Source: Datnioides undecimradiatus (Eukaryota > Chordata > Actinopteri > Lobotiformes > Datnioididae). Taken from it: DNA of 64,000 nucleotides. Made by a program: the position numbers and the translations under genes. How positions within the stretch are numbered: the stretch's first letter is position 1; the number at the start of each line of letters is the position of its first letter. The stretch is from the NCBI GenBank assembly GCA_008933995.1, contig WARS01000016.1, positions 10,402,348-10,466,347 on the forward strand, given 5' to 3'. Under the pieces are notes generated by a model. That model did no database searches. It saw only the letters and a list, made by a program, of their open reading frames with translations, and was not told the DNA's origin. Of the stretch, positions 11,056 to 62,317 are shown piece after piece.

Positions 11056-20904
<9,849 letters not shown>

Positions 20905-52544: not shown

Positions 52545-52798
52545 TCAGCAGACAGTGAGGGGCTGCGGCTCACTTTCACGCCGCTGGTTTTTCTTCAGCA
52601 GCTGAATCCGGTTGTGGCAGTAGAACTTGATAGCTCGCCAGTCGCGGTGGTTGCTGACCAGTAGTGGGCACTGCTGCAGGCAGCGCTCGCAGTCAGCCTT
52701 GGCGGGGACTCGGAGCTCAGTGATGTTTTGGGTCAGGTGCTCCTCGACTGCCGCGCGCTCTGCCTCTGACCAGGGCCGCTTTAGGACACCTCGCTTTC
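52545..52798 (-). CDS. Exon h: Myb/SANT-like C-terminal module
   Basis: 254 nt after acceptor CCCTTGTAG to TGA. It encodes [19 protein letters not shown], then [10 protein letters not shown] and [15 protein letters not shown]. The W...E...AVEEHL...W-x-AIKFY-x-x-NRI pattern is Myb/SANT-like. I remember it as the usual C-terminal tail (R-x-WTEEE-x-AV...VPGKADCE-x-C...RDWKA-x-K-x-x-x-x-NRI) of a repeated fish protein family with the exon f region. Confidence 0.88.
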
Positions 52799-55700
52799 CT
52801 ACAAGGGAGGGGAGACCACGTGTTTTAAACAGCTTCTCTTTTTCAGCAGGAGGGTAGTGAAACTTCCAACAGACACAACTTCCCAAAGTTGCAGCCGTGC
52901 ACTCTGAGCATAGTGAGCGTTCACATGAACAAACCTCCCACAAGTGTTGTGCTTTTAAGATATTCACAGAACTATTAGCAGCCTTTCATTTGTCTTTCTT
53001 TCACATAGTTTCAAAATTGTGTCAAACTGATGAAAGTCAGAAATCTCTGATCAGAGAGCTACACTTTCTGAAAGCCTTATATTTTAGTTTGACTTTGTTT
53101 TATTTTAAAGAATTGTGGTTGCAAAAACAATCTCACGGAAAAGCTCCAATAGGTTTGTGTTCTGGAGCTTTCGGTCACACGATCGTTTTTGTCATGTATT
53201 ACAGAAGTAAACATTTTTCTTTAGCATCTGACGGGGACTTTGTGTCCATGCTGAAGTTTGAGCTTTCACTATGTGCTGATAAAGATCAAAAGGTCCAGAA
53301 CTGCCGCTGAATGGACAGACTGAGTGTGATTGTCTTTTAAAGCACTGTTGTCAAGGCCAAGAATAAACTGTCATCCTCAGTGTTGTTGTTAATGTTGTGC
53401 AACTGAAGAATATACAATGTGTGTGCTGAGACTGAGTGTGTTTCTATAAGTTAAAACTCGTAGCAACGCTGTTTTCACAGAAGGAAAATTATTAGTTTAA
53501 AAAAGTAATATACGAGTTCAATATGAGGGCAGAAAGTATTCCACACACGCTCCGTGGCTTTGGCTGCCACCTTTCAGCGGGGAAGTGAGCAGGTGCTGAT
53601 TGTGTTGAAGATGTCACCTCAGACTCTAAGACTCCGTCGGCAGATTAACTGATAAAATAACTTGTTGTGGCCTTTTATCAGATTTACCATTAATCTGAAA
53701 TTGAAATCACTGTACATCAAAAGATTCTTAAATACTTTGCAAATTAGCATCTTCCAATACATTAAACCCCTTGACTGTTTCTCATTAAAAAAGATCCTGG
53801 CAGTGACAGTAACAAATCAGGCTAGATTGGCCAACAACTAGCAGGATGGGAATTGAATTAATCAATGTACCTGATCCAAACTTTTAAGGCCTTTGGAACT
53901 TTGAAATGGGAAACATCGAACCTGTTTGCTGGGTTTTGTTTCTGGTGTACGTGCTCTCAGCAGTGGGCATTTCTTGCAATTTGACCATTGAACTTTGCCT
54001 GCAGGGATGAACATGTACCAGTACACACTGTGCTTCACCTTCAACCACTGACTTGGAGCCAGTGTAAGGAACCAAAGAGCTTGAACTGTCCGTGTCGTGA
54101 ATGTCGTTGGCTTTCTCTCCATGGATGCATTTTTCTATTTAATATTTTCTCCTCTGTTTCCTTTTACTTTTCATATGATGAATCTGTTTTCTCTTTCCCC
54201 TTTCATCATTTCTGGTATTTTGTTTAGTTTTTTCATCGTCTCTTTTGCTTTATTTTGAAATTTGGTTTTCCAGTGTGACTGAAATGTTTTGTCACCTGCA
54301 TCATTTTCTCTATTTATTTATCTTCCTCCCTTTTGTTAAATTGTGCAATTACACTTATACTTGAAACCCAAACAAACCTGATTTGGGCTGACCTGAGCCT
54401 CTCCTGCGATTTGCTGGTGGAGGTGGAGGAGGTGGAGGGGTTGGCTGGCTGTTCTTGAGTTTCTTGGGTCGTCCCACCCGTCCGTTGTTCTTGCCCTTCC
54501 TGACATACAGCAGGGTAGGTACTGGGTTTGGAGCGGGGGCAGGCGCCTCAGGCTTCTCCTTCACCTGCTCTCCTTCAGACTCTCCCTCTGAGTACGAGTC
54601 CGCAGAGTTTCCTGACATAACTGTAAACAGGGAGGGATGGGAAATGTTGCACAGGAGGAGGAGGAGGAGGAGGAGGCAAGAAAGGAGACAAAAGAAAGTG
54701 CAAAACTTCATTAGTGTAATCTGTCACTCACATCCATGTTCTCCTACCAGACACCTTTTATTTATCCCACTAACAAGGTCATGATCCTTTTCCAGCCAGG
54801 AAACATTTGACACCATAGAGGGATGGATGTTCCACCTCATCTTGAAAACCAGTCACACCCATTCATCCATCCAACCATCCATCCAAACATCTCACCATCC
54901 AGCTCCAGGCAGATGTGGTTCAGGCTCATTCCTCTGAACAGCACTCCATCTCTCTCTCCACACAGCACGACTCGGCCCACTCTGCCCATCAGGCCTGGGT
55001 CCTGGCCAATTCCGGCACAGTTCTGTGTCACATGGTACTCCCTCTCCAGGAAGTGCTCGAGCCTCTCTACAGCACTGCCTCCAGGCTGACCGGGCTCCTC
55101 TCCTTCTCCCAGCAGCAGCAGCTGGGTCAGTATAGCCACCTGCCGACGAACCCTGGTCTGGGTCAGGGCACGGGGATTGCGGGTGCCGCTTGAGCGCGCC
55201 AGGCTGCGTAGGAGGTCCGTACCTCGCAGTGGCGTTGCAGGGGAGTGGTAGGGCCTGGCGAAGACATATGGGTTTGCGGGATCGACGCCCACATCCTGCC
55301 GTGTTTGCAGGAGGAGCTCCAGGCAGGGCTCGCAGTGAGGGGGGAGGATGAGGGGCTGGACACGTCCACGTTTCCCTTGGACCCCAACTCTAGGGAGGTG
55401 AGGAAGCACCAGGCGTTCAAAGGGGGACAGGGAGGCCTCCAGCGGGGTGAGCGCTGGAGGAGCTCCAGGTGGGACAGGAACGGGACACTGGGGAGTGACG
55501 CGAGCCCGATATTCAGCGATGGACAGCTTGGAGACCTCACACTCACGTCGCCTGTTGTACAGGATGAGGAGAGCCAGGCTGGAGTGGCAAAGTAGGCGCC
55601 AGGCCTCGGCTGACTGCAGCTGCCGTGACAGAGACAAGAAGGCCGAGTGCTGCAGCCGGCGAAGATACAGCACCAGAGAGGACAAAGACGAGAGGAGGGG

Positions 55701-56591
55701 CAGCAAGTGGTGACGTCCTGAACTACTGGGGAGAAAAAGTAAATTAGTTCATTTAAATTGTATTAAATTACCTTAGAGAAGTAGAGTGGTAGTTTGTTTC
55801 TGTATCCTGCATTGTAGCTGTAGCAAACTTCTAATATAGCAGCTCACCTGTTACTACAGAGTAAACTTTTAGATTAGTAGTTAAAACATCTGGTATTTCT
55901 GAATATTTTCTAAATTAATCATTTTGTTGATAGGATGCATGACAATAGAGGAAAAAGCGCAATATCATTTTTACATACTTATATAATGATAGATTATATT
56001 AGTATGTAATGTTATATAAGTATAACATCAAGATTACCATCAATGTATCAATATCAATATAATATTATCTTCACATAACATACAGCTAATCCTCAGATAT
56101 CTTGTTTTTTCCAACTGTCATTATTCATCCAAATATCTGCCACTTTATTTTTTAAATTGCAGTTCTAATCCCTAAAATCATAAACTGAGCATGAGCTATT
56201 GATTATAATTATAATTTCAACAGATTATTAGAAGACAATAGGACTGATTGATTATAATTGTATAATAATTATTATACAATATATAACAAATATATATAAT
56301 ACTAAAAAATCATCATTAGTTGCCGTCCTACTCTCAAATTTGCTCACAAAGCAGGAAAAGACCTTAAGTTACCTCAGCAAGTCCTTTTCCTTATCTTCTG
56401 TCCCACTTTCATCTTCCACCTCCATCACTCCATTCTCCTCCTCCTCATCCTCCTCCTCATCCTCCTCCTCTTCCTTTGGTGGCTCCAGCTCTTTGGCCAA
56501 CTTGCTGCTGAAGGACTGAGGGCACACCACCTCCACATCCTCCTCCTCTTTGGGCCTCTTCACCTCCACAACCTCTACATCTTCATCTTCG

Positions 56592-56623
<32 letters not shown>

Positions 56624-59506
56624 CTCCACCTCCTGTCTTTCTTTCTTCAGCCTCCTCATCGCTCCCTTCCTAGACTGTGTGACGGCCACAGGGGGCGGGC
56701 TTCTCTTTAACACAGACACTGGCACTGCGTTCTGTCCTCGTGGAGGAGTCATCACAGGTGGGGTGGAGTTTCTTCCAGCGGAGCCAGAGGATTGGCTGGC
56801 TGCTGTGTGAGCAGGCGGGGACATGGAGAGATCCTGGACACCACTCTGTGGAAGTTCTGAACTGCGGCTCTGTCCCACTGCTTGTGATGACTTTGAGTGT
56901 TGCTGTGTGTGTGTGTGCGCTGTCGTGGGGTTTGTGTTCTGTGCGTGCAGGCGGGGCATCTGTGTGTAGCGCTCCACAAGGGCAGAGCACACTTCTGGTT
57001 GGTGCGCGTGGTGTTTGTCTAAGTGCCGGCCCAGGGAACGGAAGTGGCGTCCACAGTACTCGCAGGTTTGGCGCATGGAGTCAATGGACACTCCTCCTCT
57101 GGGGACATTTATGTTGACGCTGCTTGTGGTGCTGGAGCCTAGAGGAGCCGGCGCTTTGAACACGGGCTTCACTGAAGAGGAGGAAGACGAGCAGGGGGGA
57201 GAGGACTGCGCTGAAGGGTGGGACGAAGGAGGCGGACGGCTGTGGGGAGGAATGCTAGTGGGGGAGGCCAGTGGTGGTCGCCCAGGTGGCGTCCGATGGG
57301 GGGTCTTTTTCTTTGAAGGAGTGCCACGCCGTTTTTTGCGACGCCGTAGTGCACGCCCGCGGGGGCTGGTGTTGTCCTCATCTCCAGCATCTGAGTCACT
57401 GGCGTCAGAGTGGGAGATTGGGGAGGAGGAGGGGGAGAGGGACCAAGAGGGGGTGACGTACTCCTGCTGCTGCTGCTGTTGTTGCTGCCGCTGAGCTGTC
57501 AGAGGAAGAGGCTCATCCTCCTGGAAGTGAGAGACAGTGACAGGGTTGGAAAAACATTTTTTTGCAGCATTAAAACAATGTTGAGAAAAATGTGAGAAGT
57601 GTTGAGTTTTGTTGCGCTTAAAATATGTTTTAGTTATAACAAGCAGCCTAATTATCATTAGATTAGTTTTACTATGATCTTTTAAGGCATCGGGGCTCAG
57701 TATCTGAAGTATCTGAAAAAGAAAAACCTACCAGCTTCATAGTGGCACGTCCTAAACAAGAGAGTTCAGTGGCTCAGTGTAAAACTGAGAACTCTTTAAG
57801 TAACTACCAGAAGATGTCACCACCATGACAGGCAGTGGCTCCGTCGCAGTTCGAGTGTCCTAACTGACATTATTGTATGGATGTGCTGCATTTTCACCCG
57901 TCATCAGATGCATAGTCAGGAGAGTCGTTAAATCCTAAAGCAATAAGTAAAAGCTGAGCATCACCGGCAAGAGAATCAACGGTGAATTGTCTGCACACAC
58001 ACAGTGGCTGCTGCAATGTTTCCCAATCAGACCATTTTGGAGACACAACTGGCAGCACTATGACAATAAGCAGGTGAAGTTACTTATGCCGTTTTATTCT
58101 AAAGGAGTTTAACTTCATGATGACTTGAACAATTACTACACATAATAAAACTATTATCCAGAGGAGGCTTGATGATAATGATAATGTGGAGTCCAACATC
58201 AGTGTTGTCCACCCACACCCAGGCAGGTGCTTTCCTGCAGGCAGAGCAGCGCATCGCAACTGCATCAACATTTGCTCACTAACAATGCGCTCGTGTCGTC
58301 CAGCGTCAGTGCTGTGTCTACTCCGTAGAATCCAAAGTGTATCCAAAATAAAAGCCGTACAACAAAGCTCCTGTTGATTTGTTGTACGTTGATTGACTGA
58401 ATATATTTAATTCAGTGAAAACATGATATGGCTTCAGTGAAGAGCAAGCTCTAAGTGTTGTTAGCCACTCAAAAGAGGAAATACGTGTAAACTTTCATTG
58501 TTAAGGAGTTAAAAATTACCCAAATGTAATTAGATTTATATTTGAGTTGATACTTAAGTCAAGAAAATAAAAATAATCTAACTCACAGGTACAGGATAAT
58601 GTTAATAATATAATTATTGTAGTATTATAATTATCAATGGTGATAATATCAGTAATAGGTCACTGGGTAATATTTATGGAAAGTGTGAAGTGTATGTCTT
58701 TACATCATTGATTGTGAGGCAGTTTACATTACATTTGAGGAATGTTATTGTCTTGTTGTTTCTTCATAAAACTGATGTTTTATCAGTTTGTGTGCGATTA
58801 GGAAAAACTGGGAGTTTTCTCTTACCTTCTTAATATTGTTGTTATTCTCTGTGTCTGAGTTACACTCGGGTTGCACTGGAGACACAGTACCACGGAAACC
58901 CTGTGGGACACAGAGCAGTCACATTAAAACAGCCGTCACACTGCTCGTTAATGTTTGCCATCACAATCAGCCTCAGCTGTCGCTCAGAGAGCAGGAGGAC
59001 ACCCCTCCACAGTTGGTCATGAGCGCGGAGGTTGATTAGGACGCCAAATCTCCCACTAACAAGCCAAACGAAAGAACTGAACTGGGCGAAATGTTGTTAA
59101 GCACTGTCGTCTTCTAACGAACAATAAACATGGAGGTTATCAATCAGGCTGGTATACCAGGTACAGCCGAGCAAATCAATCAGCCAATAACAGAAACCTA
59201 AAAAGATCTATTTTAGATTGTATATCAGCCAAATTAAAGAAATTGAAATGTGGCTGTGAAGGAACCGTGGTGGAACCTACTTAATCCTCTGGTGTCAATT
59301 TCGTCAATTCAATTTCCATAAATGGATTCTGGTATCATCATTTTCTTGAGTAAATTGATCCAATCTAATGAGATCCATTAAAGGAACAGATGTCATGTTA
59401 TAACCATGGTTACTGTTGCTAAAGCACTATAGGTAGAGAGAGAACTGGAGCTCAGCCATCACCATGGTAACCCCCTGCCTTGCTTAGGTTTATGTGTGTA
59501 GCATTA

Positions 59507-59560
<54 letters not shown>

Positions 59561-61859
59561 ATGACTGACAGTGAGTGTGTGGAGCTGATCAACAGTGTGT
59601 GAATACACATATGGCTGCGTATCTGAAGTCATCGGAGATGCAGAGTGTGTGAACGTACTGCTATACTTATGAGGTCCAACTAACCAAGGACAGACAGATG
59701 AATCAAACCAAAATGTGAGATTATTTAAAATAATGTGTCTGGTCTGGAAATAATGTTGTGTTGCAGATTAGATTAGGTAAAAAATAAATAATCTGCAGAA
59801 TTAGACTTTAACGTGAGAGTAAACATGAGTAGCTCCGCTCAGTCAAAACATTATGTCCTGCAGCTGCATTGTCTTCTGGTCTATAGAGGCAACTGGTGGA
59901 GGAGATGTCTGATGTCTTTTTCTCTTTTACATTTTCTCTTTTCTCTGTTGAATGTCAGTGTGAAACAGTTCATTCCTTAATCCTTCTTTGTGCTTTTTTT
60001 CTCTGACTTCTTTTTGCTGTAGACGTACACAAGCATACAGATATCGCCATCAACCAACCCCAGCCACGGAGACTGGCTAACATTGTGATAATATTCTTCT
60101 CTTATTAGTATGGTGATGTTTGTACTGTTATTATTGTTTTGTTTTTATTGTAGGGTATTGTTCAGTGTTATCTACCTATTGTCATATTTTGACATTTTGC
60201 CTCCACCTCTGTTCTCTGTTTATGCACTCTTACTCTTGCAACCTTAAAGGCTTTTGCAAGTATATCCCAAAAAACATGTGACACTTAGTGAGGGGTTTAG
60301 TGAAGGGATCTGTTGTTCAAGACCACTGACCAGGTTCTCTCCCCACTCTGTCAGGCTGTAATCCACAGTGATCTCCTCCCCCTTGGTGATGTCTCGGATG
60401 GCGATAACGACCAGCCGCACCTGGCTGCCACAGTGGACCTCTCGGATGCGGCAGTTAGGGGAGGGAGGGAAGGAGCTGGCTGTCGGGGCAGGAGCAGAGG
60501 CCGTCGGAGCAGCCGGAGCTGTGGACGCTGGGGTCAGAGATGGGGCCTGAGCTGAAGTTGCTGTGGCCGGGGCAGGAGCAGGAACTGGTGTTGGGGTTGG
60601 GGCCGAGGAAGCAGCAGGGGCTGGTGCCGGTGTAGAGGCTGAGTAGGAGCTGGTCTTAGATCCGGAGGAGACTTTGCCATAAGCCTGCTCTGATGGACCA
60701 CTAGGAGGTGAAATGGATGGGGGACTGAAAGTTAAATTCACTACCTTCATCAGTTAATGAATGTTGTTCGTCTCTTTATTCCACCATGTGGCTTTTCTCT
60801 CTCTACCGTAGGTTAGACTGGAGAGACATGCTCTGTGTCTATTTTTCATTCTCTAAAATATGAATTATCCATTTTTGTACTGTTAAGGGGACTAAGGCAA
60901 TTTAGGGACTTCACCCTGGGCTCTAAGTCATTTTATCTACAACTTGAATTATTCAGAAAACAAAAAGTCATACTGAATCATAGTGAAAATAATAATTACT
61001 TGCGGCCCTGTTTTTCTAGCTCTGTCATGTTCTAATTCAGCCATTTGATTTCGGCCATAGACACTGTGTAGAGAGGTCAGATGTATGGCTTAAAGTGTGA
61101 TACCAGTTCTATGTTCCAGCTTTGCTCTTGCATCTACAGCCTGATTTGGTCATGTGCGCCACAAATAGCTTTAATAGGGTTTCTTCCAACTAAGGTAAGT
61201 GAAGAGAAGTGACACAGTTGTAACTGTGATGTTTTCTGATTGTACTGTTCGTTCTTCTAGCCACAGGGTTATTTCTTTGAGGTAGAGATCCACTGCAGCT
61301 AAACGAGTGTAAAGCAAACAATCCACACATACAAGCACATGCCAGTGCTTCAGGGCAGTGATTCTCAATCCTATTCCTCACAGCGCTGCTGATATTTTAT
61401 CAACTGCAATATTCTTTCATCTCGGGTATAAATCAGCCTGATTATATGGTTACAATGAACAGGGTTGGCGAGTCCTGAGGACCGGGATTCAGAAGTACAG
61501 CTCTCAAACAAAGCTGTCCTCGAATGCTGAGTTAAGATCAGCGACTATTCGTTCTTTTCTGGGTGGAAAAGCTGAGCGAGAAAAGCTGCCTTTAGACAGG
61601 CATCCAAGATCTGACAATTTATTAGCTTGGGCACACATTTGTATCTGTGTTTTATAGCTAAAAGAGTGAACAAATAAACACACAAACGTAAAAAAAACAA
61701 TCACACAGATGTACACTCACCAGTTGTGAGGACCAGGCTCTGTGTTGTTAAATGGCCCATCCAGTGTGAGCCGTTTATTCTCTGCTGCTTCCTTACGGTC
61801 ACCTGGGAGCACAGCAACAGTCAGTATAAAAGGATTACATACAAGTATGCAAGGACACA

Positions 61860-61912
<53 letters not shown>

Positions 61913-61972
61913 GTCATCACCCCATCTCCTGGAGCACATACACAGGTGCACATCACAGCACATACATAGGCA

Positions 61973-62014
<42 letters not shown>

Positions 62015-62174
62015 TAGGTCACACTCACTTGCACATGCTCCACCCCCATACCAATCACACAGCCACACAGACAGATGCACGTGCACACACAAATACGTAT
62101 ACACACTCACAGAGACACAGACACGCACACACACAGTTGATGGCAGAGAGAATATAGCATGCTGATAAAACCAG

Positions 62175-62216
<42 letters not shown>

Positions 62217-62317
62217 ACACACCTGGGCTGAAGCTGTGTTCAGGCACGCTCTCCTCCTCAGTGTGTGTAACAAAGACTTTGACGGGTGTCCCTTTCCTTT
62301 TCCTTCCACAGCCGCGC
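52545..62317 (-). CDS. Chimeric SET-like / C2H2 / tyrosine-recombinase-like / Myb-like protein, 5' end not found
   Basis: Eight minus-strand exons: 62317-62223, 61802-61721, 60724-60331, 58900-58826, 57520-56373, 55725-54896, 54620-54393, 52798-52545. All introns are GT-AG, all phases agree, and no stop occurs in 1,034 codons before TGA. Counting from the first visible residue: basic start (1-12); Pro/Ala linker (60-142); SET C-terminal half (143-190, NC and GEEITVDYS); polyQ (about 226-233); C-x2-C-x9-H-x3-H finger (368-385); acidic tract (about 520-597); tyrosine-recombinase-like region (about 599-860); AT-hook-like VGRPKKLK; Myb/SANT-like C-terminus (about 957-1018). The last two parts match a repeated fish protein family I remember, derived from a mobile recombinase (Crypton-like is my guess). 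I infer a nuclear DNA- or chromatin-binding role; the actual function is unknown. The first exon is in phase 2, so coding must begin upstream. Confidence 0.85.
52799..54392. other. Intron of the chimeric gene
   Basis: Last intron, 1.6 kb. The plus-strand open frame 52897-53310 has no homology and no splice support. Nothing else seen. Confidence 0.6.
54393..54620 (-). CDS. Exon g: acidic/Pro-rich linker with AT-hook-like motif
   Basis: 228 nt after acceptor CTGTTTACAG; ends GGCTCAG before GTCAGC. It encodes [20 protein letters not shown], a Pro/Ala stretch, [17 protein letters not shown] (an AT-hook-like GRP core with lysines) and a Pro8 run. A (GAG)n tract (plus strand, 54654-54674) lies just upstream in the intron. 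Confidence 0.8.
54896..55725 (-). CDS. Exon f: tyrosine-recombinase-like region
   Basis: 830 nt after acceptor TTCTCCCCAG; ends GGATG before GTGAG. Visible family marks: [21 protein letters not shown] (box I arginine region), a GKRGR turn, [20 protein letters not shown] then TDLLRSLAR, and [13 protein letters not shown] (box II-like). The place where family members, as I recall them, read LGH-x4-H-x2-YYR here reads [13 protein letters not shown], so the catalytic His and Tyr seem to be gone. Confidence 0.85.
55726..56372. other. Intron between exons e and f
   Basis: Very AT-rich (many TATA and ATTAT runs at 55970-56290). No feature recognised. Confidence 0.6.
56373..57520 (-). CDS. Exon e: polyQ, basic/Pro-rich region, C2H2 finger, acidic tract
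   Basis: 1,148 nt after acceptor CACTTCCAG. Order: [12 protein letters not shown]8, a Ser-rich and then basic [10 protein letters not shown], a Pro/Ser-rich stretch, the finger [19 protein letters not shown], Ser/Pro-rich sequence, and long Glu/Asp runs ending DKEKDLL. The finger spacing C-x2-C-x9-H-x3-H is shorter than the classical x12. Confidence 0.9.
58826..58900 (-). CDS. Exon d of the chimeric gene (25 codons)
   Basis: 75 nt in phase 0 with acceptor GTCCCACAG and donor GTAAGAG. It encodes [20 protein letters not shown] and so on. Too short for a start-based scan; accepted because both splice sites and both phases fit and it links exons c and e without a stop. It could be alternatively spliced, as 75 is a multiple of three. 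Confidence 0.65.
59510..59560. repeat. GT microsatellite, about 25 units
   Basis: Uninterrupted GT array in the intron between exons c and d of the chimeric gene. Confidence 0.97.
60331..60724 (-). CDS. Exon c: Pro/Ala linker and half SET domain
   Basis: 394 nt after acceptor TTTAACTTTCAG, ending AACCTG before donor GTCAGT. The first 80 residues are a Pro/Ala/Thr/Ser repeat (APAPA, TPTPV). The last 48 contain [20 protein letters not shown], then [18 protein letters not shown], matching the end of SET domains (NC ... L-x-A-x-RDI-x-x-GEE-x-x-x-DY). Confidence 0.85.
60725..61720. other. Intron between exons b and c
   Basis: About 1 kb; nothing recognised. Confidence 0.55.
61721..61802 (-). CDS. 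Exon b of the chimeric gene
   Basis: 82 nt between acceptor GTGCTCCCAG and donor GTGAGTG. It encodes [20 protein letters not shown] then EPGPHN. The Gly and Cys codons at both ends are split and join correctly with exons a and c. No known domain. Confidence 0.8.
61859..62220. repeat. Cluster of three long CA arrays
   Basis: CA arrays at 61859-61909, 61977-62009 and 62173-62220, with CA-rich degenerate sequence between. They fill most of the intron between exons a and b, and the last one supplies the exon a splice donor. Confidence 0.95.
62223..62317 (-). CDS. Exon a of the chimeric gene (basic segment)
   Basis: 95 nt after acceptor TTCTCTACAG. It encodes [20 protein letters not shown] and ends AGCCCAG. 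Its donor is the first GT of a long GT array (62174-62222 as CA on plus). It begins with the third base of a codon, so an upstream coding exon must exist. Confidence 0.8.

Follow-up and report, generated by a model that had tools for sequence, protein, structure and literature searches.

An intact, constrained teleost gene that joins a SET remnant and a C2H2 finger to a tyrosine-recombinase-like core without the catalytic tyrosine

Vertebrate genes that arose from catalytically dead recombinases are already known from the Crypton/DUF3504 group. ZMYM2/3/4, QRICH1, KCTD1 and KIAA1958 are described as recombinase-derived, as having lost most catalytic residues and as conserved in vertebrates, and several Crypton-derived genes are given as transcriptional regulators whose recombinase-derived domain lacks catalytic residues (PMC3212892). 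Here we describe a gene from a 64,000-nucleotide stretch of the Datnioides undecimradiatus genome (contig WARS01000016.1, positions 10,402,348 to 10,466,347; hereafter the window), whose protein carries the end of a SET domain, one C2H2 zinc finger, a core resembling tyrosine recombinases and a conserved C-terminal tail. An earlier note on this DNA, made from the sequence alone, knew of no named vertebrate gene of this layout; the gene is in fact already annotated as the uncharacterised si:dkey-117m1.4, and also often as SRRM1 and at times as FLO11, both unrelated names. It is probably best explained as an intact, ancient teleost gene encoding a disarmed member of the recombinase family, which would act as a DNA-binding regulator rather than as an enzyme, a role for which the Crypton-derived genes provide a precedent by analogy.

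The coding sequence within the window comprises eight minus-strand exons (A to H, Table 1), each with an AG acceptor and the first seven with a GT donor, in compatible phases. They fall exactly where the earlier note had placed them and form an open chain with no inner stop, the length of which, noted as 1,034 codons, we count as 1,026 codons plus the stop (an alternative exon G donor 15 nt downstream would make 1,031). The same exon chain is present in a Symphorus nematophorus protein (P0001) with 99% identity over window-protein residues 600-1026. The window chain is an incomplete gene: its first coding exon, which reads MAETVRSLFDYRETHSLDSDGEGIKPPPPLR, lies approximately 5 kb past the window end (L009 5483-5389, minus strand), on the far side of an N stretch of 5,000 bases, ends in the phase required by exon A, and forms a junction with exon A that is identical in P0001. 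The resulting nine-exon protein is 1,058 residues long.

A protein search using residues 600-1026, in which 7,985 candidates were scored, yielded 301 proteins at E <= 0.001. Among the best 120 of these 301, the 118 named rows are all teleosts by species name (2 rows are unnamed), with eels, tarpons, carps, salmons and percomorphs represented among the matches listed, and 112 of the 120 carry a SET annotation. A second, length-limited search returned many unnamed rows, and the seven matches read resemble sequences of fishes, intron read-through being visible in several. Judged from the best 120 of 301 matches and this second search, the gene is present at least in many teleosts. In an alignment of 55 of the 120 listed homologues, the majority residue has a mean frequency of 0.946 (SET remnant), 0.935 (recombinase exon), 0.903 (tail) and 0.831 (finger), against 0.44-0.72 outside these conserved parts. 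The ratio of nonsynonymous to synonymous substitution rates (dN/dS; Nei-Gojobori method, NG86), computed against a paralogue on contig C10 of the same genome, is 0.057 for exon F, 0.062 for exon H and 0.089 overall, values that are rough because substitutions at synonymous sites are close to saturated (dS 2.4 to 3.6). This is a real gene under strong constraint, rather than a decayed element, as the earlier note had maintained.

Core and tail were recognised through alignments and a structure model, Pfam alone being insufficient. When exon F was modelled alone with its relatives, it appeared to adopt the tyrosine-recombinase/topoisomerase IB fold. A comparison of 48 relatives with 19 window-type rows reveals that the nucleophilic tyrosine, found in 47/48 relatives (one gap), is replaced by Ala, Ser, Thr or Gly in 19/19 window-type rows, and that the box-III histidine, found in 33/48 relatives, is replaced by Arg, Lys or Ser in all 19. 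The box-II arginine and the hairpin lysine, residues that act at DNA in recombinases, are retained in 18/19 (one gap) and 19/19 window-type rows, respectively. A PDB search with a profile of the 55 teleost rows returned no recombinase, its best match being the zinc-finger protein Ros (E 0.0068), and neither DUF3504 nor any other Pfam family matched exon F at E <= 0.1; NCBIfam gave no match for P0001 and stray weak matches for two relatives. Several other leads were set aside: a full-length AlphaFold model (55 teleost rows; predicted local distance difference test score, pLDDT, 43.1) was dropped as usable only at the finger and first core helices, Pfam YL1 matches in 5/68 rows (best E 8.4e-7) were taken as matches to acidic stretches, and a comparison of profiles A2 and A3 was left unused as circular, A3 containing the window sequence.

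The single finger in exon E follows a Cys2His2 pattern (C-x2-C and H-x3-H(H)), with ligand residues that are at least 90% conserved in the 55 teleost proteins, and by eye it resembles the first finger of the relatives; its Pfam C2H2 match is sub-threshold (E 0.36). AT-hook-like motifs were recognised by eye in exon G and, as GPGRPPRKK, in the C10 paralogue. The tail of P0001 displays three helices (935-949, 956-965 and 974-999) at low confidence in the poor full-length model; given the quality of that model and the lack of a Pfam match for exon H, the label 'Myb/SANT-like' given to the tail is to be taken as a lead only. A profile search of the separate parts named in the earlier note thus bears out the SET end (E 2.3e-6), finds the C2H2 finger only below threshold, and yields no Pfam match for exon F, the AT-hook or exon H of the window protein. 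The core is conserved well beyond its catalytic residues (153/275 columns invariant in the 55-protein alignment), as a protein-protein surface could explain, and the protein might accordingly be a scaffold that does not bind DNA, with the recombinase core serving as an oligomerisation surface only; we regard this as unlikely, since the box-II arginine and hairpin lysine are kept and the finger ligands are conserved.

The C10 paralogue has the identical order of parts and encodes 931 residues in its gene model, which does not include exon D, no separate search for that exon having been made there. Proteins of this second type are named Si:cabz01080528.1 in several database rows, and one paralogue bears the unrelated name BRD4. 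The second type forms a single clade (100/100) in a 35-row tree, and both types are present in Denticeps, Chanos, Etheostoma, Labrus and Oryzias; only this two-paralogue split was used, because the tree is rooted on very distant rows and its root is unsure. The split fits the teleost genome duplication, a date that we infer. Presumably both copies also occur in zebrafish, as the clone-style names suggest (no zebrafish protein was seen here). A literature search, within the collection it covered, found no paper on si:dkey-117m1.4 or Si:cabz01080528.1, nor on KMT5A-A-like, or on recombinase-derived genes under such wording. The present assignment would correct the misleading database names SRRM1, FLO11 and BRD4.

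A wider set of relatives was obtained with an alignment of three same-genome relatives plus exon F (7,995 candidates scored, 111 proteins retained). The window core is 29% identical to that of P0242 over 268 columns, and homology of the core, the finger (by eye), the tail and the intron before the tail places the window gene in this wide family, in agreement with the link to a repeated fish protein family drawn in the earlier note. Seven loci of the same genome carry a homologous tail directly after an intron that, like the window's, is in phase 1 (7/7, by eye). A complete SET domain was detected in 10/111 proteins with a 133-position profile built from relatives, 7 of the 10 matching by construction, and Pfam confirmed completeness in 9/9 submitted, these being relatives chosen for their SET. 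The homologous tail occurs in 13 other wide-family proteins (P0268 and P0296 matching by construction), none of which has a SET match, and in none of the gene models of the 10 full-SET proteins. No intact relative combining all four parts was found; at one locus on contig C226 (L034, C226:239500-249499), SET, fingers, core and tail follow in order on one strand over approximately 6 kb, with the core interrupted by a stop and frame changes and the SET spread over two exons, the second of which starts shortly before GSLGRLVNDDH (by eye). SET, fingers, core and tail are thus parts of one old family, which makes the window gene a derived member and not a new chimera. That one chain unites a half-SET, a C2H2 finger and a tyrosine-recombinase fold stands, on Pfam for the SET end, a sub-threshold C2H2 match and alignments with a structure model for the core; the idea that the combination was joined at this locus does not, as other fish genes combine a full SET with fingers and core, or fingers and core with the same tail.

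Additional observations were made on the wide family. Three SET places on the 372-kb contig C226 suggest a cluster, and a partial copy elsewhere (L042, C254:1-10000) is 83% identical at the protein level to the recombinase piece of C226 (75 residues compared), pointing to duplication within the wide family in fairly recent times. A protein of the stick insect Bacillus rossius (P0296) carries fingers, a core with the tyrosine and the tail, but no SET, so that the combination of fingers, core and tail may predate fishes or have moved between lineages. In P0331 and P0334, wide-family parts run into MYM zinc fingers, and DUF3504 (PF12012) matches lie within approximately 40 kb of wide-family SET/recombinase loci (C480:10192976-10219991 and C468:1860907-1899385); tandem spread, read-through gene models and real fusion are candidate causes.

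From the fold and the tyrosine, the family may be of mobile origin. It may be speculated further that the wide family is itself a mobile recombinase element, or used to be one, with an acquired KMT5A-like methyltransferase through which it could mark the chromatin of its own sites, and that teleosts have kept the window gene and its paralogue, as disarmed descendants, to bind those same sites, for example to silence their relatives, with the SET remnant as a docking or regulatory piece; we hold this to be distinctly improbable.

The chance that the window gene belongs to the known Crypton-derived DUF3504 genes (KCTD1, KIAA1958, ZMYM2/3/4, QRICH1, WOC) is slight. The principle is the same, as the source describes conserved multi-domain genes with a recombinase-derived domain that is without most catalytic residues (PMC3212892), and the C480 and C468 matches place DUF3504 near wide-family loci. 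However, exon F gives no Pfam DUF3504 match (DUF3504 sequences were not compared with it directly by profile, and a remote link is possible), and of the 16 PF12012 matches in the genome none falls on the contig of the window gene or on that of the C10 paralogue.

The Pfam SET match in the window protein covers profile positions 70-104 of 105 (E 2.3e-6; a scan of the genome gave E 1.1e-4, over the cut-off). With the 133-position profile, 131 of 223 orthologue and paralogue proteins match; every match starts after position 50, with the start at 80-83 in 124 proteins, and no complete SET occurs among the 131. The remnant retains the end motif GEEIT.DY of SET lysine methyltransferases (KGEEITVDY in the window; conserved to 90% or more across the 55 teleost proteins) and lacks the complete domain of that class; by eye it corresponds to the end of the last SET exon of the C226 relative, followed by a phase-0 intron. 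P0001 itself first matches KMT2-type chains among solved structures, weakly (E 0.0064). With the SET truncated and the tyrosine lost, the protein should hardly be able to methylate alone or to recombine DNA. A working enzyme, recombining through a displaced nucleophile or methylating lysine through a SET remnant that another SET protein might complete in trans, could account for a remnant as conserved as the core, with its end motif kept, and for the retained box-II arginine and hairpin lysine; we give it very little credence, as the first SET part is lacking in 131/131 SET-matching window-type proteins and the tyrosine and box-III histidine are replaced in 19/19 rows. That the gene is a neutral, decaying multi-copy element, open here by chance, is next to impossible despite broken same-genome relatives such as the C226 locus, given the same chain across teleost orthologues, a mean majority residue of 93.5% in the core and the constraint seen against the paralogue.

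That both enzymatic parts appear disarmed, while what is left of them stays almost unchanged across teleosts, suggests a non-enzymatic role. We therefore return to the disarmed recombinase-family regulator proposed above, under which si:dkey-117m1.4 is one of two old paralogues from a fish family variously equipped with a complete KMT5A-like SET, C2H2 fingers, a recombinase-fold core and a tail, presumably descended from a mobile recombinase. In this branch the first SET part has gone and the recombinase nucleophile is lost, and selection retains the SET remnant and the finger along with the core and the tail. The product may be a nuclear protein that contacts DNA through its core, finger and AT-hook-like stretches and binds partners through its tail and SET remnant, the outcome being regulation of transcription or chromatin. 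Weighing against this interpretation, the structural match behind the recombinase fold is not fully decisive.

Table 1. Coding exons of the window gene (positions within the window) and the basis on which each was assigned
Feature	Position	Strand	Basis
Exon A (the gene's exon 2), basic GRKRKGTP motif	62223..62317	-	AG/GT ends, phase; exon 1 junction as in P0001
Exon B	61721..61802	-	Splice ends, phase; also in P0001
Exon C, low-complexity Ser/Ala/Pro stretch, then C-terminal SET part	60331..60700	-	Splice ends, phase; Pfam SET
Exon D	58826..58900	-	Splice ends, phase; also in P0001
Exon E, basic and acidic linkers, one C2H2 finger	56373..57520	-	Splice ends, phase; ligand conservation
Exon F, tyrosine-recombinase-like core without catalytic tyrosine	54896..55725	-	
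Exon G, acidic stretch and AT-hook-like GRVGRPKK	54393..54620	-	Splice ends, phase; motif by eye
Exon H (includes the stop), conserved C-terminal tail	52545..52798	-	Splice ends, phase; teleost conservation; homologous tail in relatives

Introns of the gene contain (TG/CA)n microsatellites at window positions ~61835-62239 and 59500-59560, the first beginning directly at the exon A donor. Elsewhere in the window, minus-strand open frames at 11056-11916 and 20353-20904 have rhodopsin-type G-protein-coupled receptor matches (Pfam 7tm_1, E 3.1e-26 and 4.3e-10, respectively) and are taken by us to be GPR83-like.

Compared with known systems, si:dkey-117m1.4 is the same gene, with only a function missing from its annotation, and Si:cabz01080528.1 is its old paralogue, with SET remnant, finger, recombinase core and tail in the same order. 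Members of the wide family (e.g. P0241, P0242, P0264 and P0268) share the finger and recombinase core in the window gene's order, but keep the recombinase tyrosine and, where present, a complete SET, and have a second finger and a middle region (by eye), all of which the window gene lacks. KMT5A (SETD8) is the best solved match of the complete SET in the one relative compared (P0288, E 2.2e-19); in alignment the window remnant corresponds to the final part of such SETs, and the window-type protein has only approximately the last 40 residues. Unlike XerH, XerD and Cre, the window-type core is without the nucleophilic tyrosine, the box-III histidine and the box-II histidine, and is joined to other domains. 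The Crypton-derived DUF3504 genes differ in their accessory domains and in the DUF3504 profile match that the window gene lacks. A disarmed recombinase gene is of a known kind, and what is new here is a branch with a SET remnant, together with relatives that retain both tyrosine and SET; the window gene seems to represent a recombinase-derived branch of its own, within a family whose members can carry a histone-methyltransferase domain.

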